Of a stretch of 64,000 nucleotides of DNA, positions 48,166-56,713 are shown one piece after another (positions within the stretch are counted from its first letter, which is position 1; each line of letters opens with the position of its first letter). The DNA comes from an uncultured Geobacteraceae bacterium. GTDB taxonomy: Bacteria > Desulfobacterota > Desulfuromonadia > Geobacterales > Pseudopelobacteraceae. Location of the stretch: positions 1 through 64,000 of the forward strand of contig CAIUSO010000038.1 of the NCBI GenBank assembly GCA_903901875.1. The letters are read 5' to 3'. Below the pieces are notes generated by a model. That model ran no database searches and had not been told where the DNA came from. It saw nothing but the letters and a program-made list of their open reading frames with translations. The position numbers were made by a program, and so were the translations under genes.

Positions 48166-49346
48166 TCAGGACTCGCCGCCGGGGAGCTGCCGGAGCGGAA
48201 TCTCCACCACAAAGGTGGCCCCTTCGCCACCGCTCTCCGTTACGGTGATGGTTCCCCCATGGTCCGTGACGATTCCGTAGGATACGGCCAAGCCCAGGCC
48301 GGTCCCTTTTGCCTTGGTGGTAAAAAACGGAGTAAACAGCTGGTGCCGGTTCTCTTCCGCAATGCCGGTGCCGGTATCACTGATGGTCACCAGGCAGCTT
48401 TCCCCTTGCGGATTTCCCTCCACGCGGATCGTCAGGACCCCGCCCGAGCCCATGGCCTGCAGGGCGTTGACCATGAGGTTGGTAAATACCTGGCGGAACT
48501 GGTCTTCATCTCCCTCCAGCTGCAATCCGTCATCCGGGGGAAAACTCCGTTCAATACGGAACGGTGCAAGGGGGATCTGGTGGCCGATCTGGTCAAGGAT
48601 GTCATTAATCAGGGGAATTATCCTGAACGGGCGGATGATTTTTTTTCTGGTCCGGGCAAAGGTGAGCAGGTTGGAGACGATCCGCTCCACCCTGCCAACC
48701 TGGCGGATAATGGTAGCCACCTCGGACCGGTCTGAAGATTCTAAATGGGGGGACATTTCCAGCAGCTCGGCATTGCCCCGGATGATCGCCAGTGGATTGT
48801 TGATTTCGTGGGCAACCCCCGAGGCGAGGATGCCGATGCCGACCAAGCGTTCGGCCCGGGCCAGTTCCTGCTGGGCCAGTAACACCCACTGATTTTTCTC
48901 TTCCAGTTGGGCAGAGCGTTCCGCCACCTTCTCTTCCAGTGTCCGGTTCAGCAGGAGGATTTCGTCCTCACGCTCAATGAGGCGGTGCTTCATGATGTTG
49001 AACTCCTCCGCCATGACGGAAATCTCGTCATGGCCCCCCACCACGATGTCCGGTATATGTTCCCCCAGGGCCAACAGGCGGGCCGCCTCTTCCACCGCCT
49101 TGATGGGACGGGAGAGGCTGGTGCCGAGCCAGGCCGAGATAATGACCCCGATCAGGGTGACCAGCAGCAGAATTGCCAAAAATATCAGATGGATCCGGGA
49201 ACGTTGGTGGAGGTGGAAAAGGTCCGGCGTGCTGACGTAGAGGGTTGAGGCACCGATGATCCAGAACAGTACCACCGCCGTCACCAGGGGGGTCAGGGTG
49301 GCCGCAATCAGTTTCATGCGAATGGAATAGCGGAACGGTGAAACTC

Positions 49347-49350
<4 letters not shown>
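48166..49350 (-). CDS. Membrane sensor histidine kinase (HAMP-HisKA-HATPase)
   Basis: 394 residues. Two membrane segments (about 13-34 and 53-75) enclose only a short periplasmic loop, so it may sense the membrane or internal state. HAMP (about 75-130) and a coiled coil precede the HisKA helix with GVAHEINNPLAIIRGN. The ATPase domain has all boxes: NLMVNALQAM, DTGTGI, TPFFTTKAKGTGLGLAVSYGIV. The ATG overlaps the regulator gene's stop by four bases. With the preceding sigma-54 regulator it forms a pair next to the hydrogenase operon. Confidence 0.93.
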
Positions 49351-50717
<1,367 letters not shown>

Positions 50718-50747
50718 ATGTCGTGCCTCCGGTAATGCGTATTGTAG

Positions 50748-50767
50748 GGGCGTATGGCCATACGCCC
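50748..50767. repeat. Perfect 20-bp palindrome, copy 2
   Basis: GGGCGTATGGCCATACGCCC, identical to the copy at 24099-24118. Confidence 0.92.
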
Positions 50768-50858
50768 TGGTGCATATGGCACCCCTGTGTGATCATGCGA
50801 TCGTCTGTCATGGGTGTCCCTGTTGCACATGGCACCCACGTTTGCCCGAGCGACGTAG

Positions 50859-50878
50859 GGGCGTATGGCCATACGCCC
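50859..50878. repeat. Perfect 20-bp palindrome, copy 3
   Basis: Same 20 bp as copies 1, 2 and 4; part of the second 45-bp unit. Confidence 0.92.
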
Positions 50879-50919
50879 TGGTGCACATGGCACCCCTGTT
50901 TGCCCGTGCGGCAAAAGGC

Positions 50920-50939
50920 GGGCGTATGGCCATACGCCC
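50920..50939. repeat. Perfect 20-bp palindrome, copy 4
   Basis: Same 20 bp, followed by CCTACG as in copy 1, and preceded by AAAAGGC. Confidence 0.92.
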
Positions 50940-51090
50940 CTACGATTTTTTAATTGCATGGACAAAATGATACACGGTCGGCCAAAAAGAATCAATAATT
51001 GTTTCAACATGGCCGCACGCTCCTCCGCCGCGAATGGTGACTTTTACGGTAATTCAATACCTTACTACATAATTTTCGCCGTGAAAAAAT

Positions 51091-51105
51091 TGGCACGTCT
51101 GTTGC
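51091..51105 (+). promoter_or_regulatory. Sigma-54 (-24/-12) promoter of the hydrogenase operon
   Basis: TGGCACGTCTGTTGC matches the consensus TGGCAC-N5-TTGC, with GG and GC exactly ten bases apart. Transcription should start near 51117, about 40 bases before the hybO ATG, leaving a leader with GGAGG. Sigma-54 promoters need an NtrC-type activator; one is encoded divergently just upstream. Confidence 0.85.
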
Positions 51106-51157
51106 CGTATACGGAATGGAAATTAACAGGCAGGTAAATCGGTACTGCGGAGGAATT

Positions 51158-52270
51158 ATGGGTAAAGGTTCGTTTTTTCCCGATGTGAGTCGTCGGGATT
51201 TTATCAAAACATGTCTCACTGTTTCGGCCATGCTCGGGTTACCGGCAAGCATGGTCAGCACCGTCGCTGCGGCAGCGGAGAAAAAGGACAACAGGCCGAC
51301 GGTCATCTGGCTCCATTTTCAGGAGTGTACCGGCTGCTCCGAGTCCCTGCTCCGCTCATCCCACCCCGCCCTGGGCACCCTCATACTGGACATGATCTCC
51401 CTTGATTACCATGAAACCCTGATGGCCGGTTCGGGGCATCAGGCGGAGAAGTCCCTCCATGATTCGATTCATGCCAACAAAGGGAAGTATATCCTGGTGG
51501 TTGAGGGGGCCATACCGACCAAGGATAACGGCATTTACTGCAAGGTTGGGGGGAAAACCGCCCTGGAATCACTCCGTACGGTGGGAGAGGGGGCCGCTGC
51601 CATTATTGCCGTCGGCACCTGTGCCAGCTATGGCGGTATTCAGTCGGTGGGGCCCAATCCGACCGGTGCGGTGGGGGTGCGGGATATCATCAAGGATAAG
51701 CCGATCATCAACATCCCCGGCTGTCCTCCCAATCCGTACAACTTCCTCTCTACGGTGCTCCATTATGTGATGTTCAACAAACTGCCGGCTCTGGATCAGC
51801 TGGGGCGGCCGCTCTTTGCCTATGGCCGTAAAATCCATGAACATTGTGAACGGCGTGCCCATTTCGACGCGGGGCGCTTTGCCACCGCCTTTGGTGCCGC
51901 CAGCCATGCCGAAGGGTACTGTCTCTATAAGCTGGGCTGCAAGGGACCGGCCACCTATGCCAACTGTTCGGTGGTTCGTTTCAATGACGGCGTCGCCTGG
52001 CCGATCGGTATCGGCCACCCCTGTATCGGCTGTACGGAGCCCGAACTGCTCTTCAAAACAGCCATTGCCGACAAAGTCCAGATCCATGAGCCGACCCCCT
52101 TCGATAGCTATGCGCCGGTTGATCTCAAGGATAAGGGCAAGGGGCCGGCTCCGCTTACCACCGGTGTGATGGGGCTGGCGGCCGGTGCTGCCATTGGTGC
52201 CGGGGTCATGATGGCCCGGAAACTGCCCGATGGTCCGGGCAAGGGGGATGACCATGGCTCAGCCGAGTAG
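51158..52270 (+). CDS. hybO: Periplasmic NiFe hydrogenase small subunit (Hyb type)
   Basis: 370 residues. Tat signal SRRDFIKTC then a hydrophobic stretch ending in ASMVSTVAAAA directs folded export. The mature protein has the Fe-S cluster cysteines of the family: ECTGCSESLL for the proximal cluster, GTCASYGG, NIPGCPPNPYN, then the distal and medial cluster motifs (HCERRAHF, GCKGPATYANC, CIGCTEP). It passes electrons from the NiFe site. The C-terminal hydrophobic helix (TTGVMGLAAGAAIGAGVMMA) can anchor it. GGAGG sits four bases before ATG 51158; the upstream in-frame start is rejected. It overlaps hybA by 17 bp. Confidence 0.95.
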   Translation: MGKGSFFPDVSRRDFIKTCLTVSAMLGLPASMVSTVAAAAEKKDNRPTVIWLHFQECTGCSESLLRSSHPALGTLILDMISLDYHETLMAGSGHQAEKSLHDSIHANKGKYILVVEGAIPTKDNGIYCKVGGKTALESLRTVGEGAAAIIAVGTCASYGGIQSVGPNPTGAVGVRDIIKDKPIINIPGCPPNPYNFLSTVLHYVMFNKLPALDQLGRPLFAYGRKIHEHCERRAHFDAGRFATAFGAASHAEGYCLYKLGCKGPATYANCSVVRFNDGVAWPIGIGHPCIGCTEPELLFKTAIADKVQIHEPTPFDSYAPVDLKDKGKGPAPLTTGVMGLAAGAAIGAGVMMARKLPDGPGKGDDHGSAE

Positions 52271-53204
52271 ACGTCAGTTTTTCAAGCTGATGGGGGCCAC
52301 CGGTGCCGCGCTGCTGGCGGGGCGGGGAACCGCACGGGCATCAGAAAGCCATGGGGTGAATAACGATACGGTCGGTATGCTCTACGATGCCACCAAATGC
52401 GTCGGCTGCAAAAGCTGCATGTCGGCCTGCAAGCGTGTCAACAGCGATTACGGCAGCCTCTCCTACGAGCGGGCGGCCTTTGATACGGACGGACTCTGGG
52501 ATGCCCCTTCCGATCTCTCGGGGAGTACCCGTACCCTGATCAAGCTGTTTAAGGAATCCCCCAAAAAGTGGTCCTACGTCAAGTACTCCTGTATGCACTG
52601 CCAGAAACCGTCCTGCGTGTCGGTCTGTCCGGTCAGTGCCATGACCCGTGATCCCTTGACCGGCATCGTTGACTATAACAAAAACGCCTGCATCGGCTGT
52701 CGCTACTGCCAGATCGCCTGTGCCTTCAATATCCCGAAATTTCAGTGGGAAAAGGCCCTTCCCCAGATCGTCAAGTGCGATATGTGCAAGAATACCAATA
52801 TGGTGAACAAGGGGATTACCGCCTGTGCCGAAAGCTGTCCGGTGGGGGCCATTACCTTTGGCAAACGGAAGGAGCTGCTGAGTGAAGCCACGAAACGGCT
52901 CAAGGAAAATCCGGGGCTGTATCAGGATAAGATTTATGGTGAGCATGAAGTGGGGGGGACCAATCACCTCTACCTGTCGGCCATGAAATTCAACGATCTG
53001 GGGCTTCCCATCCTCAAAGATGAAGCTCCGGCCGAGTTCTCCGAAAAAATCCAGCATACCATTTACAAGGGGTTCATCGCACCGGTGGCACTTTACGGCA
53101 CTCTGTGCTTCATCGCCATCAAGAATATGAAGGGACAGCAGGAAGTGAACGGACGGAAGGATGCCGGCACCACAGGCAAGGGGGAGTCTCACAATGAGCC
53201 ATGA
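52254..53204 (+). CDS. hybA: Hydrogenase 4Fe-4S electron-transfer subunit (HybA)
   Basis: 316 residues. Tat signal SRRQFFKLMGATGAALLAG. Four ferredoxin-type cysteine groups follow: CVGCKSCMSACK, CMHCQKPSCVSVCP, CIGCRYCQIAC with CDMCKN, and CAESCP, as in HybA and related periplasmic ferredoxins. A C-terminal membrane helix (YKGFIAPVALYGTLCFIAI) anchors it. It moves electrons from HybOC to the HybB quinone subunit. ATG 52254 has AAGGGGG upstream and overlaps hybO; hybB overlaps its end by 11 bp. Confidence 0.94.
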   Translation: MAQPSRRQFFKLMGATGAALLAGRGTARASESHGVNNDTVGMLYDATKCVGCKSCMSACKRVNSDYGSLSYERAAFDTDGLWDAPSDLSGSTRTLIKLFKESPKKWSYVKYSCMHCQKPSCVSVCPVSAMTRDPLTGIVDYNKNACIGCRYCQIACAFNIPKFQWEKALPQIVKCDMCKNTNMVNKGITACAESCPVGAITFGKRKELLSEATKRLKENPGLYQDKIYGEHEVGGTNHLYLSAMKFNDLGLPILKDEAPAEFSEKIQHTIYKGFIAPVALYGTLCFIAIKNMKGQQEVNGRKDAGTTGKGESHNEP

Positions 53205-54483
53205 TGAGTATCAACGGCATGACGCCAAAATAATCACCCCCTCCTTTCTGGTCCTCCTGACCCTGACACTGATCGGTTTTGCCCTGATCGCCGTCCGCTT
53301 CATCAAGGGGATCGGTGCCGTTTCCAACATGAGTGACGGCTACCCCTGGGGAATCTGGATAACCTATGACGTGGCCACCGGTACGGCCATCGCCTGCGGC
53401 GGGTACGCCATGGCGATTCTGATCTATATCAGGAACCGGATGCACTACCATCCGATGATCCGCTCCGCCGTGCTTACCAGTATGTTCGGGTATGGACTGG
53501 CCGGTTTTTCGGTCATGGTTGACGTGGGGCGACCCTGGAATGCCTACAACTTCTTTATCCCCTCCAAGTGGCAGGCCAACTCGGCCATGTTCGAGGTTGC
53601 CCTCTGCGTTATGGCCTATACCACGGTCCTGCTGCTGGAATTTCTCCCGGCGGTGCTGACAACCCTGGAGAAGACCCAGTGGCATACCCTGCAGCTTTTT
53701 ATGGACCGCCTGCACCACTACACCGGTATCAAGCGGCCGGAACGGATGGATGAACGGCTCGACGCGGTGAAGGATCTGGGGGCCTGGCTGAAGCCTCGCC
53801 TAGACAAGGTACTGATTTTTGTCATCGTCCTCGGTATTACCCTGCCGACCATGCATCAGTCGTCACTGGGGTCACTGCTGCTCATCGCCTCGACCAAGCT
53901 GCACCCGCTCTGGCACACCGGCTTTCTGCCGCTACTGTTTTTGATCAACTGTATGTTTATCGGCTACTCCATCGCCATTTTAGAGTCGGTCATCTCCTGC
54001 TACGCCTTCAAGCGCCCCTTTGAAACCAAGGAACTGTCCGGCATGGCCCGGATCATCCCGTGGTTGACCGCCATCTGGCTTACGGTGGTCATCGGTGACC
54101 TTCTCTGGCGGGGACAGCTGGCCACGGCCCTCTCCTTTGATTTTTACTCCCGCTTCTTCCTCCTGGAATTCTGCCTGGTTGCCGGCGGTTCACTGCTGAT
54201 GTTCAGCGGCAAAAAGCGGGAATCAATCCGGTGGCTTTTTGTCTCGGCGGCCCTGATCGTTCTCGGGGGGGCCTTGTACCGGTTCAACGTCTATCTGATC
54301 GGCTTCAATCCGGGTAAGGGGTGGCATTATTTCCCGGCCCTGGCAGAATTGTTGATTACGGTCGGCATTGTGGCCTTTGAAATTCTTGGCTATCAGGTCA
54401 TCGTCAAGATCCTGCCGGTTCTCCCCAAGCTCCATACCCGCAAGCAGCAGGACGGGGCACGGCGAGCGGCGCAACAGCACTGA
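53194..54483 (+). CDS. hybB: Hydrogenase membrane subunit, NrfD/PsrC family (HybB)
   Basis: 429 residues with about ten membrane segments, the family's usual number. It carries the typical first helix (FLVLLTLTLIGFALIAVRFI), GYPWGIWITYDVATGTAIACGGYAM and GRPWNAYNF. It has no cofactor of its own and lets HybA electrons reduce menaquinone. GGGGGAG lies seven bases before ATG 53194, inside the end of hybA, so translation is coupled. It is followed by hybC 37 bp downstream. Confidence 0.93.
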   Translation: MSHDEYQRHDAKIITPSFLVLLTLTLIGFALIAVRFIKGIGAVSNMSDGYPWGIWITYDVATGTAIACGGYAMAILIYIRNRMHYHPMIRSAVLTSMFGYGLAGFSVMVDVGRPWNAYNFFIPSKWQANSAMFEVALCVMAYTTVLLLEFLPAVLTTLEKTQWHTLQLFMDRLHHYTGIKRPERMDERLDAVKDLGAWLKPRLDKVLIFVIVLGITLPTMHQSSLGSLLLIASTKLHPLWHTGFLPLLFLINCMFIGYSIAILESVISCYAFKRPFETKELSGMARIIPWLTAIWLTVVIGDLLWRGQLATALSFDFYSRFFLLEFCLVAGGSLLMFSGKKRESIRWLFVSAALIVLGGALYRFNVYLIGFNPGKGWHYFPALAELLITVGIVAFEILGYQVIVKILPVLPKLHTRKQQDGARRAAQQH

Positions 54484-54520: not shown

Positions 54521-56200
54521 ATGTCCCGTATAACCCTTGACCCGATCACCCGCATCGAAGGTCACCTGAGAATAGATGTCGAAGTAAAGGGGGGCGTGGT
54601 CAGCAACGCCTGGTCGTCCGCCCAGATGTGGCGCGGTATTGAAACCATCCTTCAGGGGCGTCCTCCCCAGGATGCCTGGATCTATGCCCAGCGTTTCTGC
54701 GGTGTCTGCACCACGGTACACGCCATTTCATCCATCCGTTCCGTGGAACATGCCCTCAGTGTGGAAGTGCCACTCAACGCCCAGTACATCCGCAACATGA
54801 TCATGGCCCAACATTCGGTGCAGGATCATATCGTTCACTTCTATCATCTGTCGGCCCTTGACTGGGTGGATGTGGTATCTGCCCTGCGGGCCGATCCGAA
54901 AAAAACCGCCCAACTGGCCCAGAGCATTTCCGACTGGACCGGCAACAGTGAAACCGAGTTCAGGGCGGTGCAGAGCAAGCTGAAATCCTTCGTTGAGACC
55001 GGCCGTCTCGGCATCTTTTCCTCGGGCTACTGGGGTCATCCGGCCATGAAACTGCCGCCGGAAGCCAATCTGATGGCGGTTGCCCATTACCTGAAGGCCC
55101 TTGATTACCAGCGGAAGGCGGCCCAGGTGGGTGCCATTCTGGGGGGTAAAAATCCCCACATCCAGAATCTGTGTGTGGGGGGGGTAGCTACAGCCATCAA
55201 CATGGATAATCTGGCGACCATCAACATGGAAAAACTGGCCGCCCTGCGGGCCCTCATGGAAGAAACACGGGATTTTGTTCAGAAGGTCTACTACCCGGAT
55301 ATGATCGCCATCGCCTCAGCGTACAAAGAGTGGTTCCATTACGGCCGGGGGGTGGTGAATTATCTGGCGGTGCCGGAAATGCCGGAAGATACCAAAAACA
55401 GCTCCTTTGCCCTGCCGGGAGCCATCATCAGTGACGGCAATATCAAGGGGGCGAAGATCATCACCAACCATCAGGATCAGGGATTGATCAACAGTATTAC
55501 CGAGAATGTGGCCCATGCCTGGTACGAGGGGAGCGGCAGTCGCCATCCCTGGGAGGGGGAAACCAAGCCCCACTACACCGATTTTGAGGACAACGGCAAG
55601 TACTCCTGGTGCAAGGCACCTCGCCTTGATGGCAAAGCGGTACAGGTTGGTCCACCTGCTCAATTATTTGCTGCCTATGCCGGGGGCAATAAGAAGGTTA
55701 TCAATCTGGTTGACAGCAGCTGCGCCAAAATCGGTATCGGCGTCAATGATCTGCATTCAACCATGGGACGTCTGGGTGCCCGAGCCATCCGTGCCCATAT
55801 CATGGCCGACTATTCCCTGGAATATCTGGACAAACTGACTGAAAACATCGGGAAAGGGGATAAAACCTACGCCAATCATACCGAAATGCCGGCCGGTGAA
55901 TACCGTGGTGTCGGTTTCCATGAGGCTCCCCGTGGTACCCTGTCCCACTGGATTGTCATCAAGGATAAAAAGATCAAGAACTATCAGGCGGTAGTCCCCT
56001 CAACCTGGAACGCTTCTCCCCGCGACGAAAAAGGGGTTCTGGGCCCCTATGAAGCATCTCTGGTCGGTAATCCGGTGGCACAGGAAGATAAGCCGCTGGA
56101 AGTACTGCGTACCATTCACTCCTTCGACCCCTGCATCGCCTGTGCGGTCCACACCATTGATCCGGACGGCAAAGAGATCACGAAAGTCAAGGTGATGTAA
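54521..56200 (+). CDS. hybC: NiFe hydrogenase large subunit (Hyb type)
   Basis: 559 residues holding the NiFe active site. The two cysteine pairs are present: RFCGVCTTVHA near the N-terminus and DPCIACAVH near the C-terminus. The 15 residues after the last His (TIDPDGKEITKVKVM) are the tail removed by the maturation protease once Ni is inserted. It has no signal peptide and crosses with HybO through the Tat system. GGAGG lies seven bases before the ATG. The protease gene hybD follows at once. Fe-cyanide and Ni insertion genes (hyp) are not in the window. Confidence 0.97.
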   Translation: MSRITLDPITRIEGHLRIDVEVKGGVVSNAWSSAQMWRGIETILQGRPPQDAWIYAQRFCGVCTTVHAISSIRSVEHALSVEVPLNAQYIRNMIMAQHSVQDHIVHFYHLSALDWVDVVSALRADPKKTAQLAQSISDWTGNSETEFRAVQSKLKSFVETGRLGIFSSGYWGHPAMKLPPEANLMAVAHYLKALDYQRKAAQVGAILGGKNPHIQNLCVGGVATAINMDNLATINMEKLAALRALMEETRDFVQKVYYPDMIAIASAYKEWFHYGRGVVNYLAVPEMPEDTKNSSFALPGAIISDGNIKGAKIITNHQDQGLINSITENVAHAWYEGSGSRHPWEGETKPHYTDFEDNGKYSWCKAPRLDGKAVQVGPPAQLFAAYAGGNKKVINLVDSSCAKIGIGVNDLHSTMGRLGARAIRAHIMADYSLEYLDKLTENIGKGDKTYANHTEMPAGEYRGVGFHEAPRGTLSHWIVIKDKKIKNYQAVVPSTWNASPRDEKGVLGPYEASLVGNPVAQEDKPLEVLRTIHSFDPCIACAVHTIDPDGKEITKVKVM

Positions 56201-56713
56201 GTGAAAACATTGATTTTCGGGGCTGGAAACCTGCTCCTCACCGACGAGGGTTTCGGTGTTCATTTTGTCAATTACCTGCAGCAGAATTACCGGTTCGGTG
56301 ATGACGTTGAACTGTATGACGGCGGCACCCTGGGTATCATGGTAACCCACAAGCTTGAGGAGGCGGACCGGGTCTATATTGTGGATATCATCGATGCCGC
56401 CGGTGAAGCGGGGGAAATATTCCGCTATGAAAAAGAGGCGTTCATGCTGGGGCGGTTGCCGGTCAAGATGTCTCCCCACCAGATCGGCATCCAGGAGGTC
56501 TTGACCCTGACCGATTTTCGTGATCGCTGTCCGGAGCAGGTAACCCTGTTTGGGATTATCCCCAGCTCATACGATGCCGGGGTGGAGTTGTCACCACTGT
56601 TGGCCGGCAAATTGCCCGGTCTGGCGGAGCTGGTGGTGGCGGAGCTGGAAGGGGCGGGGCATTTGGTTGAACGGGGTCCTGTTTCTCTGGAGGGTACCAT
56701 AGCTGAAGCATGA
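56201..56713 (+). CDS. hybD: Hydrogenase maturation protease (HybD)
   Basis: 170 residues, slightly above the usual 160. It cuts the C-terminal tail of HybC after the Ni-binding His. N-terminal IFGAGNLLLTDEGFGVHF holds the first metal-binding Glu, followed by DGGTLG and DIIDAAG with the Asp, and SPHQIG with the His. It starts with GTG directly after the hybC stop (TAAGTG), with GGTGATG as a possible ribosome site. It is last in the operon, followed by a clear terminator. Confidence 0.94.
   Translation: MKTLIFGAGNLLLTDEGFGVHFVNYLQQNYRFGDDVELYDGGTLGIMVTHKLEEADRVYIVDIIDAAGEAGEIFRYEKEAFMLGRLPVKMSPHQIGIQEVLTLTDFRDRCPEQVTLFGIIPSSYDAGVELSPLLAGKLPGLAELVVAELEGAGHLVERGPVSLEGTIAEA

Follow-up and report, generated by a model that had tools for sequence, protein, structure and literature searches.

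The DNA analyzed here (the window, a stretch of 64,000 nt) carries a hydrogenase operon beside divergently oriented genes for a regulator and a sensor kinase, and the question raised by this locus is how the operon is switched on. The genome (G000) is a 4.3-Mb assembly, 99.76% complete, whose closest named relatives are Geobacteraceae-type bacteria, e.g., Oryzomonas. The five genes that the original prediction had named hybOABCD were all found, in that order, downstream of the proposed promoter on the forward strand: hybO (51158..52270), encoding the [NiFe] hydrogenase small subunit; hybA (52254..53204), the ferredoxin subunit; hybB (53194..54483), the NrfD-type membrane subunit; hybC (54521..56200), the large subunit; and hybD (56201..56713), the maturation protease. 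This order of subunits places the operon in the Hyb type (hydrogenase 2); hybA and hybB passed their NCBIfam cutoffs, and the hydrogenase-2 models matched hybO and hybC below theirs. In Geobacter sulfurreducens, Hyb is the sole hydrogenase needed for growth on hydrogen, according to the account of Coppi et al. 2004 given in PMC7894505, and no named regulator of that enzyme was found in the literature searched. The window system is an uncharacterized sigma-54 system. We consider it very likely that a dedicated membrane kinase and an NtrC-type regulator would switch on hybOABCD through sigma-54 and a tandem upstream site, which gives Hyb a named candidate regulator, site, and promoter, testable in a genetically tractable relative.

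The predicted sigma-54 promoter, TGGCACGTCTGTTGC (51091..51105, forward strand), has the exact -24/-12 spacing that had been claimed for it and matches all 11 fixed positions of the consensus TGGCACG-N4-TTGC. The hybO start codon (ATG at 51158, preceded by GGAGG) begins 53 positions past the last base of the site, with 52 nt between them, in agreement with the 53 bp originally given, and the transcript is predicted to start at about position 51117. The window contains no other exact consensus match (with up to one mismatch allowed, 3 matches were found versus 1.3 expected), and the genome contains 8 exact matches in all, compared with 2 for a reversed control pattern. Another of the exact matches (L004, G000:C45:79024-79038) is followed, after ∼240 nt, by a cytochrome b-like gene. 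Taken alone, the consensus at a single site is weak evidence, and it is conservation that is decisive for the putative promoter.

In a first set of relatives, all 30 hybO orthologues showed a match of at least 9/11, with the GG and GC intact, 60 to 114 nt upstream of the gene, and additional hybO loci were consistent with this. A second, collection-wide scan, which overlaps the first set in part, gave matches of at least 9/11 at 35 of the 36 Geobacter-lineage hybO loci with sufficient upstream DNA, versus 2 of 43 loci outside the lineage (among them Verrucomicrobia, Deferribacteres, Acidobacteria, and Desulfocapsa); the border between the two groups is our own, since loci were grouped by record titles and similarity, and such counts overstate certainty because related sequences are not independent. 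A single copy of rpoN is present in the window genome and, together with the consensus spacing and the conserved position, it points to a promoter of the -24/-12 class. That the match is a chance consensus and that a sigma-70 promoter transcribes hyb is scarcely credible: a lone consensus match is not rare, but this one was kept at the lineage loci, a score of 9/11 was reached in only 0.9% of shuffled hybO upstream sequences, and no sigma-70-like site was found on the forward strand in 50700-51200.

A homologous regulator-kinase pair adjoins hybO at most of the lineage loci and at none of the outsider loci, and its divergent linkage to hyb was seen in several families; Oryzomonas japonica (L135), a cultivable bacterium, is one relative that shares the arrangement. 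The local two-component control of hyb proposed at the outset is supported by the co-conservation of the putative promoter, the divergent pair, and a tandem site within the Geobacter lineage, by the lack of promoter and regulator at distant hyb operons, and by a motif that tracks the recognition helix of the regulator (see below).

The tandem site lies between the regulator gene and hybO (50960-50994) and consists of a direct repeat, GGACAAAATGATACA-N5-GGCCAAAAAGAATCA. The first proposed regulator site (50960..50974, forward strand) begins 131 bp upstream of the -24 element and is the sole exact copy of this 15-mer in the genome; the second (50980..50994, forward strand) starts exactly 20 bp after the first. 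A conserved form of the repeat, RGACAAAATGATACA-N5-RGMCAAAAAGAAKCA, with starts again exactly 20 bp apart, was present in almost every one of 42 intergenic regions, where its core was near-invariant and its flanks were poorly conserved, except for a short AAC-N4-TGTTT-like stretch just 3' of the second copy. In 16 loci the first copy lies 131 bp before the -24 element, and nearly all other distances are near 110, 122, 131 to 133, or 141 bp, i.e., in steps of about one helical turn, a clustering that is no formal test because the loci are related. Genome-wide, the tandem pattern with up to one mismatch gave 31 hits in 29 of 58 genomes, about once per genome, and the reversed control gave none. 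When hit positions were compared with those of hybO, 30 of the 31 directly preceded a hyb-type small-subunit gene; the odd one (G001) lies beside an extra copy of the regulator. The motif was not found in the literature searched, and the pair of putative regulator sites is previously unreported.

The range 50740-51080, in which a regulator footprint had been predicted, contains this conserved element but also spans a dispersed repeat. Three copies of a perfect, REP-like palindrome, GGGCGTATGGCCATACGCCC, lie in 50744..50946, outside the switch. These palindromes and the adjacent 35-nt repeats were considered as regulator sites and rejected, because the palindrome belongs to a dispersed family that occurs 43 times in this genome.

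We infer that the tandem repeat is the enhancer to which the neighboring regulator binds. This protein (49347..50717, reverse strand) is a sigma-54-dependent response regulator with receiver, AAA+, and Fis-type helix-turn-helix domains (Pfam Response_reg, Sigma54_activat, and HTH_8) and an intact GAFTGA motif, and these domain matches bear out the divergent GAFTGA regulator of the original prediction. It shares domain order and GAFTGA with the NtrC, AtoC, and ZraR types, but it scores below the NCBIfam equivalog cutoffs for all three and would have its own tandem direct-repeat site. Its recognition helix reads ISRKTLDRK. When the loci of regulator paralogues were searched for the motif (up to two mismatches), it was found at 10 of 11 with this helix versus 3 of 19 with other helices (Fisher p about 1e-4, for sequences that are related). 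It is this covariation that argues most strongly for direct reading of the motif by the regulator.

The repeat might instead serve another factor, a repressor or a global regulator, with the neighboring regulator acting on hyb indirectly or not at all. Binding of the regulator to the repeat is a prediction from sequence, and a few genomes retain the motif at hyb with the regulator located elsewhere, both of which leave room for another factor; but a global site would be expected more often than the roughly one copy per genome found here, the regulator is present in the genomes that have the site, and paralogues have the motif at their own loci mostly if they share a similar recognition helix. 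We therefore regard this alternative as improbable. The regulator lies away from hyb in G017, in four genomes of one genus, and in the Citrifermentans/Geomonas group, with a homologue elsewhere in the genome, and in these genomes the motif was mostly retained before hyb. At one locus (L139), it was not seen in the available stretch. In G040, G043, and G045, the motif at hyb is on the opposite strand.

Besides its hyb-linked orthologues, the enhancer-binding regulator proposed here has paralogues (56 to 69% identical), most of which are encoded back to back with a Sec-split fdnG; a -24/-12 site is usually present there. One of them (L225, in G030) adjoins apparent selA and selB genes (selenocysteine insertion) and not fdnG directly. 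The fdnG system of G. sulfurreducens belongs to the same lineage, in which relatives carry paralogous regulator-kinase pairs divergent from fdnG, whereas in the window genome no close fdnG is present and hyb is all that the regulator faces. The fdnG operon of G. sulfurreducens (GSU0777-0781) directly precedes hybSABLP (GSU0782-0786) (PMC2725144; PMC7894505), and the fdnG promoter is RpoN dependent, as validated by primer extension in an RpoN study that reported fdnG, not hyb (PMC2725144). Hyb reached its highest abundance with formate (for HybL, 25.6 times the acetate level) and FdnG did so with hydrogen (PMC7894505), abundances that are compatible with shared control but are no proof of it. 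The three gene numbers before GSU0777 were not mentioned in the literature searched. Since some formate dehydrogenase promoters have a related motif, cross-control between the paralogues is possible.

The adjacent kinase (48166..49350, reverse strand), which would be the partner of the regulator, is a short form with two apparent transmembrane (TM) helices, a loop of ∼20 aa, and HAMP, HisKA, and HATPase domains. The analysis confirmed its very short periplasmic loop, already noted in the original prediction, and traced it to the deletion of a double-Cache sensor. The kinases of most relatives are 614 to 679 aa long and include a double-Cache region on the extracytoplasmic side (matches to sCache_3_3 and dCache), for which a small extracytoplasmic molecule would be the candidate signal; the kinases of the window clade have about 392 to 398 aa and lack the ∼290-aa sensor of their orthologues. 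The missing stretch begins immediately behind TM1 (IIGA) and extends to the last strand of the Cache region (VVGALYVG), and the junction looks as if it had been made at two similar VIGA/VVGA stretches. Losses were counted on the kinase tree, since the regulator tree gave poor resolution within the genus. All 12 short kinases group in a single clade of the kinase tree, with a node support of only 0.71, making one deletion likely; the in-frame loss thus probably happened once, within a clade comprising at least 12 species.

The short kinases (dN/dS of about 0.07 to 0.14) show purifying selection much like that on the long forms, their catalytic motifs are intact, and the tandem site and promoter persist at their loci. 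Purifying selection and the persisting site and promoter argue that the short kinase is kept for a function, which can hardly be the binding of a soluble extracytoplasmic ligand; as a sensor, it could be inactive. It is a natural case of a kinase retained after loss of its sensor domain, in which the cues that act on such kinases could be studied. Loss of the sensor did not cleanly track loss of formate dehydrogenase, as fdnG homologues were retained in some genomes with the short kinase, and fdnG was missing from one with the long kinase. At one locus (L104, in G014), interruptions are apparent in hybO and in the kinase gene, possibly through decay or an assembly error, with regulator, site, and promoter intact.

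A sigma-54 promoter and an NtrC-type regulator encoded next to an uptake hydrogenase are also found in the HoxA case, and HoxA and HupR are reported to be active in the unphosphorylated state. The window arrangement resembles the HoxA/HoxJ-HoxBC and HupR/HupT-HupUV systems in this placement of the regulator. Unlike the HoxBC and HupUV systems, however, the window genome contains no regulatory (H2-sensing) hydrogenase gene that could be found in a PF00374 search, where the matches were Hyb, a second Hyb (L108, without this promoter or regulator), an Mvh-like enzyme identified from its open reading frames, and one sub-threshold match. The kinase also differs: HoxJ is a soluble PAS-domain kinase, whereas that of the window is membrane bound and has no PAS domain, and in comparison with HoxJ and HupT its ancestral sensor is a double-Cache domain. 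With no regulatory hydrogenase found and a kinase without PAS, the logic is HoxA-like but falls outside the HoxBC/HoxJ system, so that the caveat attached to the earlier comparison with HoxA/HupR holds. It is possible, if unlikely, that the regulator itself behaves like HoxA/HupR, being active when unphosphorylated, and that the kinase only damps it, so that loss of the sensor leaves hyb on. Such a reading would fit the loss of the kinase sensor while regulator, site, and promoter stayed intact; the intact catalytic motifs and the purifying selection on the kinase argue instead for a continuing kinase/phosphatase role.

According to the preferred model, activation by the kinase, presumably through phosphorylation, would lead the regulator to bind the two direct repeats on a fixed helix face, ∼131 bp upstream, and to contact the sigma-54 RNA polymerase at TGGCACGTCTGTTGC by DNA looping, driving hybOABCD. 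In the window clade, where the extracytoplasmic Cache sensor was probably lost in one in-frame deletion, the short kinase would have to respond to a different cue, from the membrane, HAMP, or the cytosol, or be constitutively active. A broader reading, which we hold to be evenly balanced between right and wrong, is that of a lineage-wide sigma-54 hydrogen-uptake module without a regulatory hydrogenase, which would have arisen with, or swapped parts with, a paralogous formate dehydrogenase module and been rewired in the window clade when one deletion removed the entire extracytoplasmic sensor, with kinase, regulator, enhancer, and promoter staying under selection.

Exchanges of the controlled genes were also observed. 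In G003 (L110) and G022 (L237), hyb has given way to a hyb paralogue 55 to 58% identical to it, with the same sigma-54 promoter, tandem site, and regulator in front, and in G039 the tandem site is also present before a second hyb operon. In G040 and G043 (L208 and L211), a homologue of the regulator is divergent from a gene for a protein of 868 to 874 aa, which by eye has a cyclic-nucleotide-binding and an AAA domain fused to a membrane polyferredoxin, and a -24/-12-like site and the motif precede this gene.
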